64,000 bases of DNA from Amycolatopsis pretoriensis (lineage in GTDB: Bacteria > Actinomycetota > Actinomycetes > Mycobacteriales > Pseudonocardiaceae). A program made the position numbers and the translations under genes. Location: NCBI RefSeq assembly GCF_900107925.1, contig NZ_FNUJ01000005.1:682001-746000 (forward strand), written 5' to 3'. A model generated the notes under the pieces. The model was not told the DNA's origin. It worked only from the letters and a program-made list of their open reading frames with translations, and searched no databases. This document shows positions 5,174 to 63,909 of this stretch, piece after piece. Positions within the stretch are counted from its first letter, which is position 1; each line of letters starts with the position of its first letter.

Positions 5174-6481
5174 GTGTTCAGCGCCTTCCGCTCGGCTCTC
5201 GCGACGCCGGATCTACGCAAGAAGATCCTGTTCACGCTAGCCATCGTCGCGGTCTACCGAATCGGTGCGACCATTCCGGCACCCGGGATCTCCTACGGGG
5301 CGGTACAGGCCTGTAGCTCCCAGGCGCAGCAGGAGGGCGTCTACCAGCTGCTGAACCTGTTCAGCGGCGGTGCGCTGCTGCAGCTGTCGCTCTTCTCGAC
5401 CGGCATCATGCCGTACATCACGGCGAGCATCATCATCCAGCTGCTGACCGTGGTCATCCCGCGGTTCGAGGAGCTGAAGAAGGAAGGCCAGTCCGGCCAG
5501 GGCAAGCTGACCCAGTACACCCGGTACCTGACGGTCGCCCTGGCGATCCTGCAGGCCACCGGCGTGGTCGCGCTCGCGGACCGCAAGCAGCTCTTCCCGG
5601 ACTGCGACCAGCCGATCATCCCGGACAACAGCGTCTACTCGCTGGCGATCATCGTCATCACCATGACCGCGGGCACCGCCGTCATGATGTGGCTGGGCGA
5701 GCTGATCACCGAACGCGGCGTCGGCAACGGCATGTCCGTCCTGATCTTCCTGAACATCGCCGCGCGCATCCCGGTCGAGGGCGGGAACATCCTGTCCAAC
5801 GGCGGTGGCATCGCGCTGACGATGATCTGCGTCTTCGGGCTCGTGATCATCGCGAGCGTCATCTTCGTCGAGCAGGGGCAGCGCCGGATCCCGGTGCAGT
5901 ACGCCAAGCGCATGATCGGCCGCCGGATGTACGGCGGCACGTCGACCTACCTGCCGATCAAGGTGAACCAGGCCGGCGTCATCCCGGTCATCTTCGCGTC
6001 GTCCCTGCTGTACCTGCCGGACCTGATCAGCCGCCTCGTCGGCGACCAGAACAGCAACTCCGGCTGGCAGGTCTTCATCAAGAACTACATCGTGAACCAG
6101 TCCAGCTGGGTGCACATCGCGCTGTACTTCGGCCTGATCATCTTCTTCACGTACTTCTACATCACGATCACGTTCAACGTGGACGAGCGTGCGGAAGAGA
6201 TGAAGAAGTTCGGCGGGTTCATCCCGGGCATCCGCCCGGGCCGCCCGACGGCCGAGTACCTGAGCTTCGTCCTGGGCCGGATCACCCTGCCCGGTTCGCT
6301 GTACCTGGGCATCATCGCGATCCTTCCGAACTTCTTCCTGTCGGTGACCGGTAGCGGGAACAACCAGAACTTCCCGTTCGGTGGCACGGCTGTGCTGATC
6401 ATGGTCGGTGTCGGGCTCGACACCGTGAAGCAGATCGAAAGCCAGCTGATGCAGCGCAACTACGAAGGGTTCTTGAAGTGA
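5174..6481 (+). CDS. secY: preprotein translocase subunit SecY
   Basis: The product is 435 residues with ten transmembrane helices. It is the channel of the Sec translocon. Typical features are the N-terminal LRKKILFTL, the plug region after the first helix ([11 protein letters not shown]), [10 protein letters not shown]-like loop text ([15 protein letters not shown]) and the cytoplasmic loop [16 protein letters not shown]. The GTG at 5174 follows a GGAGG site. An upstream in-frame extension to 5054 is rejected because it reads into the leader. Its stop overlaps the adk start by four bases (GTGA). Confidence 0.96.
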
Positions 6482-7032
6482 CGCGGCTGGTTCTCGTGGG
6501 TCCGCCCGGCGCGGGCAAAGGTACGCAGGCGGTGGCTCTGTCGGAGCAGCTGCGCATCCCGCACATCTCCACGGGCGAGCTGTTCCGCGCGCACGTCGGC
6601 CAGGAGACCCCGCTGGGCCAGGAAGCCAAGCGCTACCTGGACTCCGGCGAGCTCGTACCCGACTCGGTGACGAACGAGATGGTCCGCGAACGCCTGGCGG
6701 AGCCGGACGCGAAGGCCGGCTTCCTGCTCGACGGCTTCCCCCGCAACACCAAGCAGGCCGAGGTGCTCGGGGAGATCCTGGGTGACGCCGACGTCTCGCT
6801 CGACGCCGTGATCCAGCTGCAGGTGCCCGAGGACGTCGTCGTCGGGCGGCTCATGTCCCGCGGCCGCGCGGACGACACCGAAGAGGTCATCCGCCGCCGC
6901 CAGCAGATCTACGTGTCGGACACCGCGCCGCTGCTGGAGTACTACGCCGACATCCTGGTGACCGTCGACGGCGTCGGCAGCGTCGAGGAGATCTCCGGCC
7001 GAGTGCTGAAAGCGCTGCGCGACCGCACGTGA
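6478..7032 (+). CDS. adk: adenylate kinase
   Basis: The product is 184 residues and catalyses AMP + ATP to 2 ADP. The P-loop [10 protein letters not shown] (residues 8-17) and the DGFPRN motif are present. The LID is the short form: R-G-R-A-D-D directly replaces the long insert, as in Mycobacterium. It is coupled to secY by a GTGA overlap and followed by map. The secY-adk-map order is strongly conserved. Confidence 0.97.
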
Positions 7033-18994: not shown

Positions 18995-20632
18995 TCAGCG
19001 GCGGGTCGAGACCGGTTCGGCCGGGCGGTTGCGGCGGATCGTGCGCATCACGAACAGCGTGATCAGCAACGCCACCAGACCACCGCCGGTGCCGGCCAGC
19101 GCCACGATCATCGGCGTCTTGTTGTTGTCGTTCGCCGGCGGGAGCTGGGCCACCTGCGGGGCCGGGATCGGCGCCAGGTTCCCCACCTCGGACGGGAGGC
19201 TCTGGGTCAGCGCGGCCACCGGGTCGATGACCCCGTAGCCGACGAAGTTGTCGCGCCCGCCCGGGGCCGCCGGGTGCTGGGCCGTCTCCTTGATCCGGTT
19301 GATGATGCCCTTCGCGTCCAGGTTCCGGTACTTGGCCTTGACCAGGGCCGCGAGGCCCGCCACGTACGGCGCCGCGAAGCTCGTTCCCTGGATCGCGCTG
19401 GCCTTGTCGCCGCTCTCGAACGTCAGGTTCGCCAGACCCGAGGAGTTCTCCGCGGGGTCGAGCGAGATGATCTGCGTCCCCGGCGCCGCGACGCCGACCC
19501 ACGGGCCGTGGACGCTGAACGGGGCCACGCCGCCGGTCTCGTCGATCGCGCCCACCGAGAGCACGTCGTCGGCGAACCACGGCGGCGTCACGATCGTCTT
19601 CGGCCGCCGCGCGTCCGGCTGGTCGTTCTGCGGGCAGGTGTCCGTCGCGTTGCCCGCGGCGGCGATGATCACGACACCCTGCGACGCGGCGAAGTGGACG
19701 GCGGCCTGGACCTGCTGCTCGCCGTCGGTGATGCGCCCGTCGGCGGGACGGCAGTTGTCGACCGACATGTTGATGATGTCGGCCTCGTGCCGCTCGGCGA
19801 TGCCGCGGATGATCTCGGCCAGCGTCTTCAGCGTGCCCGCCGTGCCGGCCTTCTCCAGCTGGCGCCCGCCGTTCGTCTGGCCGGGGGACGTCCGGTCGCC
19901 GTCGCCCGCACCGGAACCGCCGCCACCGCCTTCGGTGCTCGGCGGCAGCGAGGACTCCGACCCGGCGGGCGGGTTGGTGCTCGACGACGGCGTCCCGCTC
20001 GAACTGGCGGGCGGGTTCGGCGTCGAGGTCGACGTGTCCGGCTCGTAGTTCTCGCTCAGCTGGCGGTAGGACACGATCGTGGCGTCCGGGGCGACGCCGA
20101 CGAACCCGACCTCCGGGTCGTCCGGCTTGGCCGCGATGATGCCGGCGACCTCGGTGCCGTGGCCGTCGCAGTCCTCGAGGCCGGGCTGCTTCCCGTTCGG
20201 CGTCGCGACGTACTCGCCGCCGGACACGAGGCGGTTCTGCAGCCAGGGGTGCTTCGTCACGCCGGTGTCGACCACGGCGACCTTGACGCCCGCGCCGGCG
20301 CCGCCGTTCGTGGCGGCCCGGACGATCTCCTGGGCCTTGGAGATCTGCAGGTACTCCTGGCCCCACGGCCGGTTCTTCAGCACGATGTTCTGACCGAGCG
20401 TGCTGCGCTGGACGCAGCCCTTCGACTGCTTGTACTTCTTGTCCGGTCCCCGGGAATCGGGGATCAGCTTGCTCATGTCCACCGGCGGCGGCGTCGCGAA
20501 GTAACCGTCGGCCGGCGCCGCCTGGCCCCACGCCGGGACCGTCGCGCCCACCGGGACCAGGACGCCGAGCGTGCCGGCGATCAGGGCCGTCGTGGTTCGC
20601 CGGGTTGCGCCGAAACGGCGTCCTGGTGCCAT
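18995..20632 (-). CDS. mycP: mycosin, ESX-associated subtilisin-like protease
   Basis: The product is 545 residues. It is a membrane-anchored S8 serine protease that stabilises the ESX complex. The catalytic triad is complete: D122 (VAVVDTGV), H158 (DCDGHGT) and a Ser near 418 (QGTSFAAP). The oxyanion Asn is in AAAGNATD. A signal peptide (about 1-38) and a C-terminal helix followed by RTIRRNRPAEP anchor it. An inserted Ser/Pro/Gly-rich loop (about 195-255) is long. ATG 20632 is used. GTG 20656 overlaps the eccD stop (GTGA) and is an alternative. Confidence 0.93.
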   Translation of the reverse strand: MAPGRRFGATRRTTTALIAGTLGVLVPVGATVPAWGQAAPADGYFATPPPVDMSKLIPDSRGPDKKYKQSKGCVQRSTLGQNIVLKNRPWGQEYLQISKAQEIVRAATNGGAGAGVKVAVVDTGVTKHPWLQNRLVSGGEYVATPNGKQPGLEDCDGHGTEVAGIIAAKPDDPEVGFVGVAPDATIVSYRQLSENYEPDTSTSTPNPPASSSGTPSSSTNPPAGSESSLPPSTEGGGGGSGAGDGDRTSPGQTNGGRQLEKAGTAGTLKTLAEIIRGIAERHEADIINMSVDNCRPADGRITDGEQQVQAAVHFAASQGVVIIAAAGNATDTCPQNDQPDARRPKTIVTPPWFADDVLSVGAIDETGGVAPFSVHGPWVGVAAPGTQIISLDPAENSSGLANLTFESGDKASAIQGTSFAAPYVAGLAALVKAKYRNLDAKGIINRIKETAQHPAAPGGRDNFVGYGVIDPVAALTQSLPSEVGNLAPIPAPQVAQLPPANDNNKTPMIVALAGTGGGLVALLITLFVMRTIRRNRPAEPVSTRR

Positions 20633-57524: not shown

Positions 57525-58676
57525 TCAGGAAGCTGCTGCGTGCTTGTGCGCCGGGGCGCCTACACCCAGCAGTTCTTCGATCGCCGCGACCGCTAACGCT
57601 GCCGCATTCCCTTCGCCGTACGGGTTTCCGACCTGGGCCGGCCGTAGCTCGCCGCTCAGCAACCGCGCTGCGGTGTCGGCTATCCGGGATGTCTCCGTGC
57701 CCACCAGCCACGCGCACCCCGCCTCCACGACCTCCATTCGCTCGGTGACGTCCCGCAGGACCAGCACCGGCGTTCCGAACGTCGGGGCCTCCTCCTGGAT
57801 GCCGCCCGAGTCCGTCAGCACCAATGACGCCAGCCGCAGTGCTCGGACCAGGTCCGGGTACTCCAGCGGGTCTGTCACCGTCACCCGTGGCAGGCCGCCC
57901 AACGCCGCCTCGACCTGGGTGCGGACCTGGGGGTTCGGGTGCGCCGGGAACAGCACCTGGACGTCCGGGTGCTCCGCCACGATCAGCTGCACCGCGGCGA
58001 GCGTCCGCTCCAGCGGCTCGCCCCACGACTCGCGCCGGTGGGACGTCACGAGCACCAGCCGCTCGCTCGCCTCCGCGATCTCCATCTCCAGCAACGCCAG
58101 TGCCGTGTCGCGCGCCGGGAGGTCGCGCGCCGCGATCTCCAGCACCGCGTCCACCACCGTGTTGCCCGTCACCGCGATCCGTTGCCGTGCAACGCCTTCC
58201 GCGCGCAGCTCGGCCGCCGCGGCGAGGGTCGGGGCCAGGTGCAGCGCCGCCAGGCGGGACACCATCTGCCGGGCGCCCTCCTCCGGGAAGGGCGCGGTGA
58301 GGTCGTGCGTGCGCAGCCCGGCTTCCAGGTGCACCACCGGGATGCCCAGCCAGAACGCGGCGAGCGCGCCCGCGAGCGTCGTCGTGGTGTCGCCCTGGAC
58401 GACGAGCGCGGCCGGCGCGTGCCGGCGCAGGACGTCGTCGAGCGCCGGCAGCAGGCCCGCGACCAGCTCCGCCTGACCGCCGGTCACGCGCGGCGGCACG
58501 TCCAGCCACTCGTCCGCGACCAGGCCGAACGGCGAGAGGGCCTGCTCGACCATGCCCGCGTGCTGCCCGCTGTGGACCAGGATCGGCCGCAACGCGGGGT
58601 GCGCCTCCAACGCCAGCGCCAGCGGCGCGAGCTTGAGCGCTTCCGGCCGCGTCCCGGCCAGCAACATCACATCCAC
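57525..58676 (-). CDS. wecB: UDP-N-acetylglucosamine 2-epimerase, non-hydrolysing
   Basis: The product is 383 residues and interconverts UDP-GlcNAc and UDP-ManNAc for surface polysaccharides. AGTRPEALKLAPL, VVQGDTTTTLAGALAAF, HLEAGLRT, TSHRRESWG, HPNPQVR and LTDSGGIQEEAP are family signatures. The GTG at 58676 (VDVMLLAGTRPE) has GAGAAGGGG upstream. Start codons further up are poorer. It stands next to an exosortase and glycosyltransferase, suggesting surface glycan use. Confidence 0.94.
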   Translation of the reverse strand: MDVMLLAGTRPEALKLAPLALALEAHPALRPILVHSGQHAGMVEQALSPFGLVADEWLDVPPRVTGGQAELVAGLLPALDDVLRRHAPAALVVQGDTTTTLAGALAAFWLGIPVVHLEAGLRTHDLTAPFPEEGARQMVSRLAALHLAPTLAAAAELRAEGVARQRIAVTGNTVVDAVLEIAARDLPARDTALALLEMEIAEASERLVLVTSHRRESWGEPLERTLAAVQLIVAEHPDVQVLFPAHPNPQVRTQVEAALGGLPRVTVTDPLEYPDLVRALRLASLVLTDSGGIQEEAPTFGTPVLVLRDVTERMEVVEAGCAWLVGTETSRIADTAARLLSGELRPAQVGNPYGEGNAAALAVAAIEELLGVGAPAHKHAAAS

Positions 58677-58729
58677 CCCGCGGTGCCCCTTCTCCACATA
58701 GCCCAGTGTCCAGCAAATATCTCCCAAAG

Positions 58730-58770
58730 GGGCCGCCGGCGTGCGAGGGGCGCACGCCGACGGCCCTTTT
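58730..58770. terminator. hairpin between wecB and the LAATG mini-gene
   Basis: A 16-bp stem (GGGCCGCCGGCGTGCG / CGCACGCCGACGGCCC, one mismatch) with an AGGGG loop is followed by TTTT on the plus strand. On the minus strand it follows the 59-residue gene by a few bases and so separates it from wecB. Confidence 0.75.
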
Positions 58771-58772
58771 CG

Positions 58773-58952
58773 TTACTCCCGCGCCTGGGAGAGACGGCGG
58801 TTGCGGCGGTGGACGGCGATCAGCGCGACGGTCCCGAGCAGGACCAGGAGCACGCCGACGGCCAGCCACCACCCGACGTCGGCCCCGGTGGCGGCGAGGG
58901 TGCCCACCCCGCCACCGGCCACGCCGACGCCCGCGCCCGGCATCTTGTACAT
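58773..58952 (-). CDS. 59-residue stand-alone LAATG sorting-signal protein
   Basis: The protein begins MYKMPGAGVGVAGGGVGT, then LAATG (residues 19-23), a hydrophobic helix (27-47) and a basic tail HRRNRRLSQARE. LAxTG is the recognition motif of actinobacterial class E sortase, and the whole protein is little more than a C-terminal cell-wall sorting signal. There is no N-terminal signal peptide of its own. The ATG at 58952 is 11 bases after the stop of the anchored protein gene and has a GAGCGAGG site. It may be a split-off anchor or a small membrane protein. Confidence 0.75.
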   Translation of the reverse strand: MYKMPGAGVGVAGGGVGTLAATGADVGWWLAVGVLLVLLGTVALIAVHRRNRRLSQARE

Positions 58953-58963
58953 GCGGGCCTCGC

Positions 58964-59734
58964 TCAGGCCTGCGCGGAGCGCCGGCGGTAGATGCGCGTG
59001 CCGACCGGCACCGCGACGGCGCCGAGCAGCCCGAGCCCGATCCACAGGCCCGCGCCGGACGCCAGCGGCATCGGCGGCGCGGCCGGCCCGCAGGTCGCCG
59101 ACGACACGATCACGTCACCCGAGCCCAGCGAGCCGACGACCCCGCCGAGCAGCTTCACGTGGATGGCGTTGACCGTGAGGCTGCCGTCCTGGTTCTTGAT
59201 CTGCTCGTTGAGGATGACCGTCGCGATGTTGATGCCGGCGATCGCGACCTTGACCTGCGTGTTCGCCGCGGGGTTGGCGTCGACGGTGCCGACGCTGCCG
59301 AGCTTCGCGTCGGCCAGCGTGCTGCTGCCCTTGACGCCCGCCTGGGTCGCGGTGCACACGGCCTCGACGGTCTTGATGCCGACGTCGCCGAGCGCGGCCT
59401 TGAGCAGCGGCAGGCCGACGTTGGCGGTGGTCGCCTTCGCGGTCACCGCGCCGGAGTTGTCGTCGCGCTTGGCTTCGGTCGCGATCACACCGGCAGTCAG
59501 GACGCCGGGCACGGCGGCGCTCGCCAGCGTGCTCGTCGTCGGGCCCGCGGTGCTGGCGGCCGCGAGCGGGCCCGCCTTCACCGCCTGCTGCCCGAGCAGC
59601 TTGACGTCGACCTTCACGCCGTACGCCGACCCGTCACCGGGCGCGGCCGACGCGGGGGCCGCGCCGGCGAGCACGAAGCTCGCCACGACCGCGGCGAGCA
59701 GGCCGCCGCGGCGCACGAGGGAGCTCTTCTTCAA
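58964..59734 (-). CDS. secreted protein with C-terminal membrane anchor (choice-of-anchor P-like)
   Basis: The product is 256 residues. A TTG start at 59734 with GGAGG five bases upstream gives MKKSSLVRRGGLL and a signal peptide ending ASA-A. The mature part is Ala/Val/Thr-rich beta sequence with two cysteines (EAVCTAT and SSATCGP). It ends PPMPLASGAGLW, a hydrophobic helix and RIYRRRSAQA. This layout fits the choice-of-anchor P group as I recall it and makes it the likely substrate of the divergent exosortase. Upstream in-frame readings to 59872 are leader. Confidence 0.82.
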   Translation of the reverse strand: MKKSSLVRRGGLLAAVVASFVLAGAAPASAAPGDGSAYGVKVDVKLLGQQAVKAGPLAAASTAGPTTSTLASAAVPGVLTAGVIATEAKRDDNSGAVTAKATTANVGLPLLKAALGDVGIKTVEAVCTATQAGVKGSSTLADAKLGSVGTVDANPAANTQVKVAIAGINIATVILNEQIKNQDGSLTVNAIHVKLLGGVVGSLGSGDVIVSSATCGPAAPPMPLASGAGLWIGLGLLGAVAVPVGTRIYRRRSAQA

Positions 59735-60064
59735 CTGGTCCTCCGAAATTCGCTGGGTTTCCCTGGAGTTCGCGTGACGGCGGCGCGGATCGAACCGGCT
59801 TGCCTCGACTCGGCACGCGAATCGACTATCGCGAACAGCGGCGCGAATAGCACACGAAATTTCCCGAATCACCGGATCGGGTATTCCGCGACGCCGTTTC
59901 CGCTGGTCGTGCCGACGTCACTCGAACGGCGTAACAAGTTCGGCGAAGAACCAGCCGAATGGGGCCGCCTTTCCACCCCTCCGAGTGGAAAGGCGTGGCA
60001 CACATGTCCTACGCTCGCCCGGGGTCCGCAGCTGGAACGAAAAACCGACACCGAGAGGACCGTC
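59735..60064. promoter_or_regulatory. divergent promoter region with perfect hairpin
   Basis: This 330-bp gap between the anchored-protein gene and the exosortase gene has no coding signal. It is less GC-rich than its surroundings. A perfect 11-bp stem CGCCTTTCCAC / GTGGAAAGGCG (59966-59995, 8-base loop) lies 70 bases before the exosortase GTG, and TACGCT (60013-60018) is a possible -10. GAGAGG precedes the GTG. Confidence 0.55.
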
Positions 60065-60604
60065 GTGGCCGTAGCGAGCGCTCCGAACTCTGGCATGACA
60101 AGGTTTCCGCTGGTCATAGCGCTGAGCGCGCTGGCGGCCGCGGGGGTCGTGGTGGTGCTGGCCGAGCGGTTCTACCGCGAACTGGAAGTGCGCCTGGCCG
60201 GCGCGATCCTCGACGTCATCACTACATCGGGTGTTTATGTGGCACCCGATCGGGAGTCCGTTTACTTTGGGTTGAGCAGTGCTGCTCCATTCGGGTTGAG
60301 AATGACTCCGGAATGCTCTTCGGCGTTCCTTCTGCTCCCGCTGGTCGTTGTGACCATGGCCATGTTGTATTTCCGGCCGTCGAATGCGAAGCGCCTGTTC
60401 TTTTCGCTCGGTATTTCCGCACTCGTCGTCGTACTGGTGAACCAGCTGCGCATTCTCACGATCGTCGGCCTGGTGCACTGGTTCGGCACCGACGAGGGCT
60501 ACTACTGGGGCCACACGCTGCTCGGCTCGATGGTCAGCGTGTTCGGCGGCGCCGTCTCGATCGTCCTGTTCGTCTGGCTGGCCACCCGGAAGAAGAAGGC
60601 ATGA
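60065..60604 (+). CDS. exosortase/archaeosortase-family transpeptidase (XrtP-like)
   Basis: The product is 179 residues with about five membrane helices. The family's catalytic residues are all visible: Cys84 in MTPECSSAF, Arg129 in NQLRI and His150 in YYWGHT. Exosortases cleave and re-attach proteins carrying C-terminal motif-helix-basic tails. The codon use is less GC-biased than neighbours (many T-ending codons between 60220 and 60410). It is coupled to the glycosyltransferase by ATGA and faces its probable substrate gene. The XrtP label is from memory of actinobacterial subfamilies. Confidence 0.85.
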   Translation: MAVASAPNSGMTRFPLVIALSALAAAGVVVVLAERFYRELEVRLAGAILDVITTSGVYVAPDRESVYFGLSSAAPFGLRMTPECSSAFLLLPLVVVTMAMLYFRPSNAKRLFFSLGISALVVVLVNQLRILTIVGLVHWFGTDEGYYWGHTLLGSMVSVFGGAVSIVLFVWLATRKKKA

Positions 60605-61977
60605 GCGTCAAGGTCCTGCTGGCGATCACGCAGGCGTTCGCGCTCACGATGAGCGTGGCGTTCCTGGTGTACGTCGTGGTCATCGTGGTGCCGTACCTGC
60701 GCCGCAAGCCCGCGCCGGTCGGCGACCCCGCGGACTTCACGTGGCACTTCTTCGTCCCGTGCCGCGACGAGCAGACGGTCATCCGCGAGACGATCCGCTA
60801 CCTGCGCACGACGTTCCGCAAGGCGCACGTCTGGGTCGTCGACGACGACTCGGAGGATCGCACCGCCCGCGTCGTCCGGATGCTGTGGCGGCGCCACGGC
60901 GGCTACGACCCGTACCTGCACCTGGTGCCGCGGGTGCGGCCCGAAGCCCGGACCGGCAAGGGGGACGCGCTCAACGCGGCCTACCGGGCCCTCAACGACT
61001 GGATGGGTTCGGACGCGTCGCGCGACGACGTCGTCGTGGTGGTCGTCGACGCCGACGGCCGCCCGGCCCCGAACTGCCTGGAGGTCTGCGCGGCGGACCA
61101 CCTCTTCGGCGACCCGGAGATCGGCGCGGTCCAGCTCGACGTGTGGATGAGCAACGTCGAAACGCCGCCGCCGTCGCGCAACCCGGTCGGCCGCTGGTTC
61201 GGCCTGAAGCTCGCGCAGCTGCAGGACCTGGAGTTCCGGACGGCGATCGCGGCGATCCAGACCTCCCGCGGCTTCACCGGCACGATCTCCATGGGCGGCA
61301 ACGGCCAGTTCACCCGGCTCACCGCCCTCGACTCCATCGCGGGCGACGCCGAGGAGCCGTGGCGCGGCTCGCTGCTGGAGGACTTCGAGCTCGGCGTCCA
61401 CCTGCTGACGGCGGGCTGGCGCACCGGGTTCACCCCGGATTCCCATGTGGCGCAGGAGGGTCTGTACAGCCTGCGCCGGTTCCTGGTGCAGCGCACGCGC
61501 TGGGGCCAGGGCACCATGCAGTGCGCCCGCTACCTGCGCCGGATCTGGGATTCGCCGCACGTCAGCACGCTCGGCGCGGCGGAGATGATGTACTACCTCG
61601 CCCAGCCGTGGCTGCAGCTGCTCGGCTCGCTGCTGTACCCGATCCCGTTCATCCTGCTGGTGGTGAGCACCGCGGGCGACCCGGCGCAGATGTGGACGTG
61701 GTTCACCGGCGGCGCGTGGATCCTGTTCGCCATCTACGGCTCGTTCGGGCTGCTGCCGTTCCTCGTCTGGGGCCCGATCTACCAGCTGAAGTGCCTGCGC
61801 AGCCGGAACGTCCTGCGCGGCATCGGGCTGGGCTTCGCGTACGCGGCGTACATCTACACGTTCTACGTGACGTCGTGGCGCGCGCTCTTCCGGCTGGTCC
61901 GCGGCCGCAACGGCTGGGCGAAGACGCGGCGCAACACCGAGCAGGCGGCGGGGGCGAAGGTCGCGCTCGACGCTTGA
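60601..61977 (+). CDS. membrane family 2 glycosyltransferase
   Basis: The product is 458 residues. One N-terminal helix (about 8-30) is followed by a cytoplasmic GT-A domain with VVDDDSED, DADG (150-153), LLEDFELG and QRTRWGQG (Q-x-x-R-W). Three or more C-terminal helices follow. This is the processive cellulose/hyaluronan/poly-GlcNAc synthase layout. Encoded in one operon with the exosortase, it may glycosylate the anchored protein or make a polymer linked to it. No PilZ domain is present. Confidence 0.88.
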   Translation: MSVKVLLAITQAFALTMSVAFLVYVVVIVVPYLRRKPAPVGDPADFTWHFFVPCRDEQTVIRETIRYLRTTFRKAHVWVVDDDSEDRTARVVRMLWRRHGGYDPYLHLVPRVRPEARTGKGDALNAAYRALNDWMGSDASRDDVVVVVVDADGRPAPNCLEVCAADHLFGDPEIGAVQLDVWMSNVETPPPSRNPVGRWFGLKLAQLQDLEFRTAIAAIQTSRGFTGTISMGGNGQFTRLTALDSIAGDAEEPWRGSLLEDFELGVHLLTAGWRTGFTPDSHVAQEGLYSLRRFLVQRTRWGQGTMQCARYLRRIWDSPHVSTLGAAEMMYYLAQPWLQLLGSLLYPIPFILLVVSTAGDPAQMWTWFTGGAWILFAIYGSFGLLPFLVWGPIYQLKCLRSRNVLRGIGLGFAYAAYIYTFYVTSWRALFRLVRGRNGWAKTRRNTEQAAGAKVALDA

Positions 61978-62043: not shown

Positions 62044-63909
62044 ATGCCCATGTCCCTCCCAAGATCGGCCGCGCTCATCGCCGCCGCCACGCTCCTGACC
62101 GGTCTGGCCGCCGCGCCGGCCCAAGCCGCCGCCGGTGACCAGCGGCAACGCGACTTCGCCGCCGCCGCGAGCGAGTTCGGCGTCCCCGAGAACGTCCTGC
62201 TCGGCGTCTCCTACCTGGAGTCCCGGTGGGACTTCAACGCCGGCACGCCCAGCACGTCCGCCGGCTACGGCCCGATGCACCTCACCGACGTGCGCGAGGC
62301 CGGGGTGGCGACCAGCCACCACGACGAAGGCACCGAGGACCCGCGCGGCGACGACGCGCGTCCGGCGCTGCACCCGCAGGCCGGGCCCGCCACGCCGCCG
62401 GCCGGGCTGCAGACCGTGGACGAGGCAGCGCAGCTCGTGGGCGAGGACGCCGCGACCCTGCGCACCGACGCGACCCAGAACATCCGCGGCGGCGCCGCCC
62501 TGCTCGCGAAGTACCACGCCGGCCAGAGCGGCTGGTACGACGCCGTCGCGCGGTACAGCGGATCCACCGGCGACGCCGCGCGGACGTTCGCCGACGAGGT
62601 CTTCGAGACCATGAAGAGCGGCATGTCCCGGACCACCGATGACGGCCAGCAGGTCACCCTCGCCGCGTCGCCGGACGTGCAGCTGCCGGCGCACAGCGGG
62701 AACCCGGCGGACGTCGAGTGCCCGCGGACCGTCGCCTGCGAGTCCGTCCCGGCGCCGTATGAGGAGCTGCCGAACGACGACTACGGCAACCACGACCTCG
62801 CGAACCGGCCCGAGAGCCAGAAGATCGACCACATCGTCATCCACGACACCGAGGGCTACTGGGACAGCGTCCTCAAGCTCGCCCAGGACCCGACGTACGT
62901 GAGCTGGCACTACACGATCCGCTCCACCGACGGCCTGATCGCGCAGCACGTGCCGACCAAGGACGTCGCCTGGCACGCGGGCAACTGGTACGTCAACGCG
63001 AAGTCCATCGGCATCGAGCACGAGGGCTTCGCCGCGAAGGGCACCTGGTACACCGAGGCGATGTACCGCTCGAGCGCGAAGCTCGTCGGCTACCTCGCGC
63101 GCAAGTACGGCATCCCGCTCGACCGCGCGCACATCATCGGCCACGACAACGTGCCGGGCACGATCCCGTCGACGATCAAGGGCATGCACTGGGACCCGGG
63201 ACCGTACTGGGACTGGTCGCACTACTTCGACCTGCTGGGCGCGCCGCTCGGCGGGTTCGGGCTGCCGGGCTCGTCGCTGGTCACGATCGACCCGGACTTC
63301 GCGAAGAACCAGCCCGCGTTCACCGGCTGCGACAGCCCCGGGACCCCGTGCGCGCCGCGCGGCTCGGAAGCCGTGGTGCTGCACTCGGAGCCGAGTGAAG
63401 CTTCGCCGCTGCTGAAGGACATCGGCCTGCACACCGACGGCTCGGCGTCCACAATGGACGTTTCCGACGTGGGCAGCCGCGTCGCGACGGGGCAGCGGTA
63501 CGCGGTCGCCGGCGTCAGCGGCGACTGGACGGCGATCTGGTACCTCGGCCAGAAGGGCTGGTTCCACAACCCGCGCGGGGCTCGCGTGGCCAAGCCGGCG
63601 ATCGGCTGGGTCGTGACGCCGAAGCCGGGCCTGGCAACGGTGCCGGTGTACGGGCGCGCCTACCCGGAGCCGGAGGCCTACCCGGCGAACGTGCCGGTCC
63701 AGACCATCACCCCGCTGCCGTACACGTTGTCGGCGAGCCAGAAGTACTCGTCCGCCGGCACGGTCGGGTCCGAGTACTACTACGCGGTGACGTTCGACCT
63801 GGCCGACCATGTCGTGGTCAAGGGCAAGCTGAAGTACGTCCAGATCCAGTTCGGGCACCGGATCGCGTTCGTCAAGGCGGACGACGTCCGGGTGCTGCCG
63901 GCGTTCTAG
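62044..63909 (+). CDS. secreted N-acetylmuramoyl-L-alanine amidase
   Basis: The product is 621 residues. A signal peptide (MPMSLPRSAALIAAATLLTG..., cleavage near AQA-A) is followed by a lysozyme/transglycosylase-like region (SYLESRWDFN, SAGYGPMHLTD, about 35-190). An amidase_2/PGRP domain (about 262-400) has zinc ligands in VIHDTEG, a later His and HWDPGPYWDW. The C-terminal 200 residues look like SH3-type wall-binding strands (WYLGQKGWFHNP). ATG 62044 has GGGGG upstream. It cleaves or remodels peptidoglycan. Confidence 0.9.
   Translation: MPMSLPRSAALIAAATLLTGLAAAPAQAAAGDQRQRDFAAAASEFGVPENVLLGVSYLESRWDFNAGTPSTSAGYGPMHLTDVREAGVATSHHDEGTEDPRGDDARPALHPQAGPATPPAGLQTVDEAAQLVGEDAATLRTDATQNIRGGAALLAKYHAGQSGWYDAVARYSGSTGDAARTFADEVFETMKSGMSRTTDDGQQVTLAASPDVQLPAHSGNPADVECPRTVACESVPAPYEELPNDDYGNHDLANRPESQKIDHIVIHDTEGYWDSVLKLAQDPTYVSWHYTIRSTDGLIAQHVPTKDVAWHAGNWYVNAKSIGIEHEGFAAKGTWYTEAMYRSSAKLVGYLARKYGIPLDRAHIIGHDNVPGTIPSTIKGMHWDPGPYWDWSHYFDLLGAPLGGFGLPGSSLVTIDPDFAKNQPAFTGCDSPGTPCAPRGSEAVVLHSEPSEASPLLKDIGLHTDGSASTMDVSDVGSRVATGQRYAVAGVSGDWTAIWYLGQKGWFHNPRGARVAKPAIGWVVTPKPGLATVPVYGRAYPEPEAYPANVPVQTITPLPYTLSASQKYSSAGTVGSEYYYAVTFDLADHVVVKGKLKYVQIQFGHRIAFVKADDVRVLPAF

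Follow-up and report, generated by a model that had tools for sequence, protein, structure and literature searches.

A divergent five-gene locus in the window, by which we mean the whole 64,000-nucleotide stretch of Amycolatopsis pretoriensis DNA that was analyzed, probably directs the building of a surface sugar polymer and the attachment to the cell surface of two proteins, of which one is very small. It belongs to an already curated kind of system: NCBIfam names exist for its gene families, and in a curated profile search every gene scored above its cut-off. Our best reading, to which we give an even chance, is that these genes form a module for a cell-surface polysaccharide and for two proteins anchored there, in which a synthase, a mini-protein, and WecB would form an old core and an exosortase and its substrate a dedicated add-on. 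The locus would then be a compact one-enzyme, one-substrate exosortase case in soil actinomycetes, and the polymer of the neighboring synthase may be the acceptor.

Gene products of the locus

All five genes of the initial annotation were present and read as it had described them, by gene calls and profile scores. On the minus strand lie the genes for a WecB-type nonhydrolyzing UDP-GlcNAc 2-epimerase (57525 to 58676; start uncertain, 58670 to 58727; TIGR00236, 364 bits, cut-off 210), a mini-protein of 59 amino acids (58773 to 58952; NF058583 LAXTG_small_WW, 94 bits, cut-off 65), and CoaP, which has a TTG start and 256 residues (58964 to 59734; NF040603, 94.1 bits, cut-off 27; NF053845 CoaP_CTERM, 64.8 bits, cut-off 35). 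By the gene calls, a divergent intergenic region of 330 bp with putative promoters (59735 to 60064) separates this run from the plus-strand genes for the exosortase XrtP (60065 to 60604; 179 amino acids; NF012139, 271.5 bits, cut-off 200) and an XrtP-associated family 2 glycosyltransferase (60601 to 61977; NF053846, 723 bits, cut-off 520). The ATG of the glycosyltransferase gene overlaps the TGA of XrtP by 4 bases, which, with the family score, bears out the proposal of a membrane glycosyltransferase coupled to the exosortase.

The exosortase had been described as carrying all three catalytic residues, and the family score and the trio Cys84, Arg129, and His150, conserved in 95, 98, and 97 of 99 aligned exosortases, respectively, agree with this. 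The protein falls outside the XrtG family (25 bits; TIGR03110 cut-off, 102.75) and scored 22 bits against the EpsH model (cut-off, 105.55). The implied novelty of an exosortase in a Gram-positive organism did not stand: NCBIfam already contains XrtP, XrtR, XrtS, and XrtG, and an XrtG set is named for Lactiplantibacillus in the accessible part of one report (PMC12854382). Among the literature matches listed, none dealt with the biology of XrtP or CoaP, in a search that mostly lay outside subscription journals and does not prove absence.

CoaP consists of a signal peptide, an all-beta domain, and a C-terminal tail made up of PMPLASGAGLW, a helix, and RRR; it has both the choice-of-anchor P domain and the CoaP_CTERM tail, adjoins XrtP, and gave the single tail match in the genome. 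Across 100 genomes, with at most 68 candidate places scored in each, the tail exceeded its cut-off in 50, once per genome and always adjoining XrtP; among 60 genomes of the genus, 9 had no XrtP above the cut-off, and none of these 9 had the tail. We infer from these sequence matches that CoaP is a dedicated XrtP substrate, as the initial annotation had suggested. Its structure model is all-beta (mean pLDDT, 83), and the fold search gave no confident match (best Foldseek E value, 0.0028; best Z score, 4.4), so that no fold class was assigned.

An acidic core and a Q..RW motif mark processive membrane polysaccharide synthases. Both are found in the glycosyltransferase, the motif as QRTRW, and the columns D81, D82, D150, D152, E260, D261, Q297, R298, R300, and W301 were invariant in 17 aligned rows. 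The top Foldseek matches of its structure model, which is of moderate confidence (mean pLDDT, 67), were hyaluronan synthase (the best; E value, 1.3e-10; TM score, 0.58), a mannosyltransferase, and cellulose synthase. The enzyme thus looks like a membrane polymer synthase, and for this reason an anchored polysaccharide fits better than a glycosylated protein, the other product that had been proposed. Which sugar is used can be guessed at only from WecB and DUF2334, because the synthase scored far below the curated model for the poly-N-acetylglucosamine (PNAG) synthases PgaC/IcaA (37 bits; TIGR03937 cut-off, 422). Enzymes of the WecB family convert UDP-GlcNAc to UDP-ManNAc. DUF2334, which we take to be a deacetylase, adjoins or is fused to distant synthase relatives; it scored 20 bits against the one curated deacetylase model that it touched (cut-off, 280), and all 27 DUF2334 loci were without an exosortase and without a sortase. 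Nothing therefore indicates deacetylation in the window locus.

Conserved module, core, and add-on

The initial annotation had proposed neighborhood conservation as a check on its grouping, and the genes were indeed found together, so that the refuting condition it had named, a lack of co-occurrence in other genomes, does not apply. A scan that detects only loci carrying one of two peptide patterns retained 80 named XrtP loci, and every one of them had the complete five-gene module, a Met-Tyr start being required of the mini-protein in this check; 79 of these loci are recorded in Pseudonocardiaceae genera. Since all 80 hold all five genes, the arrangement is far from chance. The module was also complete in 50 of 50 further loci from the genus of the window, a count that is not independent of the first, because the named loci and the genus genomes overlap in species. 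The setting is conserved as well: 49 of the 50 genus loci that were fetched include tsaD, which in 44 lies no more than 1 kb from the module, and in one genome without the module (G043) glycosyltransferase fragments remain at the same site. With a locus G+C content of 68 to 73%, within the 64 to 75% range of the window, these findings do not favor a recent horizontal arrival. No XrtP relative that might point to a viral origin was found among viral contigs in one scan with XrtP.

The wider comparison covered 151 loci of the glycosyltransferase family, which were not sampled at random: the 50 genus loci are among them, and the others were chosen from synthase matches in three scans that scored only the best candidates per genome (up to 15, 4, and 7). 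For gene calls we used a codon-based caller of our own, whose training set was seven genes of the window; one exosortase (L071) and two sortases (L041 and L042) escaped it and were recovered by six-frame search, and it gave a shortened exosortase in L051. The locus counts were drawn up after the data had been seen; they include the degenerate loci L048, L050, L110, L177, and L178, which were left out of the tree, and exclude L115, which had no synthase call.

Judged by gene content across these loci, the core is the synthase, the mini-protein, and WecB. A wecB gene lay within the fetched stretch of 136 of the 151 loci, on which ground we rejected WecB as a chance neighbor; it was missing from that of the other 15. 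On the same comparative evidence, the exosortase and CoaP are an add-on, lost in some lineages that retain the mini-protein, so that the five-gene grouping first proposed is real as co-occurrence but is built around a smaller core. Five loci (L032 and L038 to L041) have the synthase, mini-protein, WecB, and a sortase and no exosortase; L033 to L037 have the synthase and mini-protein, also without an exosortase, and wecB in L037 only. In a tree made by a quick method, with long branches flagged and 8 of the 50 genus loci included, the synthases of L033 to L037 nest within a clade that otherwise has XrtP and CoaP, save for the degenerate locus L176. The comparative data also hold natural experiments: among the 86 loci that have both CoaP and a called exosortase, Cys-Arg-His was kept in 85, the exception being a truncated gene call, whereas in the three loci of the XrtP clade that have no CoaP the exosortase has lost catalytic residues (N-R-A, V-H-H, and H-R-A).

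The mini-protein and the proposed mechanism

The mini-protein is composed of a Met-Tyr start, a Gly/Ala-rich N-terminal tail, LAATG, a single hydrophobic helix, and an Arg-rich C-terminal end. Like a canonical sortase substrate, it has LAxTG, a helix, and a basic tail (TIGR01167, 19.3 bits; cut-off, 15.9); unlike one, it has no N-terminal signal peptide and no cargo domain. The one hydrophobic segment in a hydropathy scan starts about 28 residues in, and an orientation with the N terminus outside appears likely. In a motif control over the 151 loci, 113 LAxTG/LPxTG mini-ORFs, in as many loci, lay no more than 2.5 kb from the glycosyltransferase gene, and none was found in the 1.18 Mb of the 151 loci that lies farther away; one LAGTG case (L164) was assigned to the "other" minis by judgment. 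Elsewhere in the 64-kb window, one further ORF (18995 to 19219) matches a loose mini-protein pattern.

LAxTG is a class E sortase signal, according to PMC5148588. Because of this motif, and because the mini-protein is present without an exosortase and CoaP, we rejected it as an exosortase substrate in the main reading; in gene content, it travels with the polymer enzyme and not with the exosortase. Of 99 exosortase loci, 98 retain the motif, as do all 10 sortase loci, including divergent ones. Every one of the 10 sortase loci has an LAxTG mini-protein; 7 of the 10 sortases were called solely by a profile built from four sequences, and all three that were tested were class E. No sortase gene adjoins the module in the window, and Pfam sortase matches, of whatever class, number 10 elsewhere in the genome.

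In the favored reading, WecB, as its family suggests, would convert UDP-GlcNAc to UDP-ManNAc, and the glycosyltransferase, by family and fold, would polymerize an amino-sugar polymer and export it through its own channel. The mini-protein may insert beside the synthase with its short Met-Tyr tail outside, where a housekeeping class E sortase would cut it at LAxT|G, so that a short peptide would stay attached to the peptidoglycan. XrtP, whose translation is probably coupled to that of the synthase, would strip the C-terminal tail from its single substrate, CoaP, and link this protein to an acceptor at the surface; the likeliest acceptor is the polymer itself or a lipid-linked form of it. To our knowledge, the acceptors of exosortases are largely unknown. 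The comparative data suggest that exosortase and CoaP were a later addition to the old core.

The mini-protein invites two other explanations. We consider it unlikely that the synthase has the mini-protein as a small membrane subunit, with LAxTG secondary. IcaD is such a subunit for IcaA. MatA has been likened to IcaD in the available text of one study (PMC5972031), and 11 of 27 DUF2334 loci have a motif-less single-helix ORF of 40 to 80 amino acids directly adjoining the synthase, so that a partner helix can occur without the motif; however, our own search found no mini in 13 of these 27 loci, and the near-complete retention of the motif in exosortase and sortase loci argues against a secondary role. 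It is unlikely, too, that the mini-protein is a minimal sortase-borne polymer handle, with the chain begun on or joined to Tyr2 or the N terminus and a class E sortase tying both to the peptidoglycan. Its tracking of the synthase rather than the exosortase favors this, as does the finding that little is conserved beyond Met-Tyr, a spacer, the sortase motif, the helix, and basic residues; the shortest mini-proteins, which adjoin DUF2334-fused synthases, have 38 to 39 amino acids (MYxxLLPVTG...). When starts were set from the ribosome-binding site and the ATG and nothing else, 105 of 112 loci had a Met-Tyr start, and 6 of the remaining 7 offer one in the same frame (111 of 112), but roughly half of these loci are close relatives within one genus. 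A tyrosine-primed product is putative, and Tyr2 may instead serve membrane insertion or sortase access; moreover, three minis (L170, L172, and L173) have Met-Tyr without the motif, and Tyr2 and the motif are therefore separable. If the mini-protein does carry the polymer, cell-wall attachment of a polysaccharide by this route would be new. The fuller proposal, that a class E sortase acts alongside the exosortase, with the mini-protein tyrosine bearing or receiving the polymer for wall anchoring and a lineage-specific exosortase and CoaP adding a protein to the same polymer, we regard as quite doubtful.

Most improbable in our view is direct glycosylation of CoaP or its lipid anchor by the glycosyltransferase, in which case the module would yield a single sorted glycoprotein without a free polymer. 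The 4-base overlap with XrtP and the single CoaP tail per genome are consistent with it, but the glycosyltransferase family also occurs without XrtP and CoaP, yet with the mini-protein and often WecB; its best structural matches include polymer synthases, and its catalytic domain should be cytoplasmic, whereas CoaP is predicted to be exported.

Relation to known systems

The locus fits the NCBIfam families for XrtP, CoaP, and the XrtP-associated glycosyltransferase (NF012139, NF040603 with NF053845, and NF053846) without departure, and the family names themselves link the exosortase with the glycosyltransferase. The Lactiplantibacillus set, described in the accessible part of PMC12854382 as exosortase G, a Firmicu-CTERM protein, and two glycosyltransferases, likewise combines a Gram-positive exosortase with a C-terminal-signal protein and glycosyltransferases; it differs in that the window exosortase lies below the XrtG cut-off and in that an LAxTG mini-protein and WecB are not named in that part of the report. 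With the PEP-CTERM/EpsH system, as presented in the sections available of PMC1569441, the locus shares the membrane family, the conserved Cys, Arg, and His, and the linkage to exopolysaccharide genes, but that system has outer-membrane hosts and a median of eight substrates, in contrast to the one of the window exosortase. Class E sortase substrates of the LAXTG type, as outlined in portions of PMC5148588 and PMC13251363, resemble the mini-protein in LAxTG, helix, and basic tail, and a sortase occurs in the 10 related loci; the mini-protein, however, lacks a signal peptide and carries next to no cargo, and no sortase adjoins it in the window. Streptomyces MatAB, compared by description, pairs a family 2 glycosyltransferase with an extracellular deacetylase domain to make a PNAG polymer and so recalls the DUF2334-fused relatives, but MatB has a CE4 domain, and neither an exosortase nor an LAxTG mini-protein is mentioned in the available text (PMC5972031).

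A curated locus conserved in the family

The five genes at 57525-61977 lie in two divergent runs, with wecB (UDP-GlcNAc 2-epimerase), a 59-aa mini-protein and the choice-of-anchor protein CoaP on the minus strand and the exosortase XrtP and a glycosyltransferase on the plus strand; the glycosyltransferase ATG and the XrtP stop overlap. The initial annotation had described these genes as an exosortase-glycosyltransferase surface module, and the gene identities are borne out by NCBIfam, where every gene exceeded its curated cut-off: XrtP as exosortase P (score 271.5; cut-off, 200), the glycosyltransferase as XrtP associated (723; 520), CoaP as choice-of-anchor P (94; 27) and by its C-terminal tail (65; 35), the mini-protein as LAXTG small protein (94; 65), and WecB (364; 210). 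The locus therefore belongs to a known kind that curators have already named, although its core needs redefining. No publication on an XrtP-type locus was among the literature matches listed. An N-acetylmuramoyl-L-alanine amidase gene is on the plus strand in the window (62044-63909) but convergent to the module in most genus loci.

Profile searches placed XrtP, the CoaP tail and the LAXTG mini-protein over their cut-offs in 51, 50 and 52, respectively, of 60 genomes of the genus and in none of 40 other genomes. Conservation of the gene neighborhood, which had been proposed as a check, was confirmed: all five genes occur together in 50/50 extended genus loci fetched besides the window (wecB on the opposite side in one; the exosortase of another, L071, recovered by six-frame search) and in all 80 relatives kept of the 84 found by an XrtP-alignment pattern scan of species genomes. 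Of these 80, 79 are recorded in Pseudonocardiaceae genera (Amycolatopsis, Lentzea, Saccharothrix, Actinokineospora, Kutzneria, Actinosynnema, Umezawaea, Actinophytocola, and Solihabitans) and one as Nocardia; the Cys-Arg-His catalytic residues are present in 79, the other being a gene call with a gap at Cys. At locus L050 (genome G043, 6289-6962), glycosyltransferase gene fragments persist at the usual site, where the remaining module genes were not found.

A mini-protein that probably outlasted the exosortase

The wider glycosyltransferase (synthase) family was sought in 396 phylum genomes, with a match at 1e-60 in 13, including the window's own, and in 249 family genomes, with a match in 82; the loci fetched gave a comparison set of 151, 50 of them from the genus. 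Within the fetched stretches, wecB was found in 136/151, an exosortase in 99, a sortase in 10, and both enzymes in 5. The LAxTG mini-protein accompanies 98/99 exosortase loci, all 10 sortase loci, and 8 of the 47 loci lacking both. Three of the 10 sortases were tested against the class E model and scored 189 to 218 bits (cut-off, 160). Five of the eight loci with a mini-protein but neither enzyme (L033 to L037) have synthases that nest in a clade that otherwise has XrtP and CoaP, except for one degenerate locus; in these five, the mini-protein thus probably survived a loss of both exosortase and CoaP. The first interpretation is partly supported: it stands as to the co-occurrence of the five genes in relatives and needs revision as to the core, which comprises synthase, mini-protein and WecB, with exosortase and CoaP as an add-on. 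In L033 to L037, a 1,171- to 1,222-aa protein with a signal-peptide-like start adjoins the mini-protein or lies one gene away; the L033 copy had no Pfam or NCBIfam match.

A DUF2334 protein, presumably a sugar deacetylase (the curated-model match is sub-threshold), adjoins or is fused to the synthase in 27 other loci, all devoid of exosortase and sortase. Four phylum relatives of family f41 (L112, L113, L114, and L117) encode the fusion as a single protein of 855 to 1153 aa, the DUF2334 domain being recognized by Pfam in three and by our own profile in L114. Close to the fused gene in L112 to L114 is a 38- to 39-aa mini-protein, MYxxLLPVTG plus helix, the shortest form seen.

The mini-protein has a single hydrophobic helix followed by basic residues and no signal peptide, so its short N-tail should lie outside the cell. 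Motif-bearing copies occur in 112 loci (103 distinct sequences). With starts chosen from ribosome-binding site and ATG alone, 105 begin with Met-Tyr; such a start is available in frame for six more and absent from one doubtful mini-protein (L164). Met-Tyr mini-proteins without the motif in three loci count against a strict link between Tyr2 and motif. Farther from the synthase, 1.18 Mb of the 151 loci held no motif-bearing mini-ORF.

Exosortase, substrate and catalytic decay

CoaP and a called exosortase occur together in 86 loci; 85 of these keep the catalytic trio, and in the remaining one the call is truncated. By our own profile, CoaP is missing from 12 loci with a called exosortase. Nine of these retain the catalytic residues; in seven of them a simple test found a protein with a C-terminal anchor no more than 6 kb away, and in L031 and L158 it found none. 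The two exosortases scanned (L031 and L047) scored best to exosortase S, and in L111 the anchored protein exceeds the choice-of-anchor P cut-off (38 versus 27).

The other three (L042, L043, and L137), within the XrtP clade, have lost catalytic residues. Catalytic decay goes together with substrate loss most clearly in L042 and L137, both with a sortase and neither with an anchored protein by the same test, because in L043 a 445-aa C-terminally anchored protein adjoins the synthase. The synthase tree places L043 apart from the other two, which suggests that decay occurred twice separately. In all three homologues the reading frame has stayed open and overlaps that of the glycosyltransferase; they could possibly be pseudo-enzymes with a structural role.

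The window's own genome also encodes, at G000:C23:368213-368773 and 369018-369440 (locus L183), a CoaP-domain paralogue over the choice-of-anchor P cut-off that ends in PQTGDGSLAEG and has no CoaP-tail match, with a sortase gene directly after it. Here a CoaP domain is combined with another anchor.

A possible role for the mini-protein

Gene content, conservation and motifs were observed directly; the following working steps are inferred. WecB would supply UDP-ManNAc to the polymer synthase, which is predicted to resemble hyaluronan synthase. A class E sortase would cleave the mini-protein, while XrtP would process CoaP and link the product to an acceptor at the surface, for which the polymer is a candidate. 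In a more novel and less probable reading, the mini-protein would itself serve as a handle fixing the polymer to the wall. This idea on the mini-protein's role is new and testable, beside the redefined core of an already curated kind of locus.
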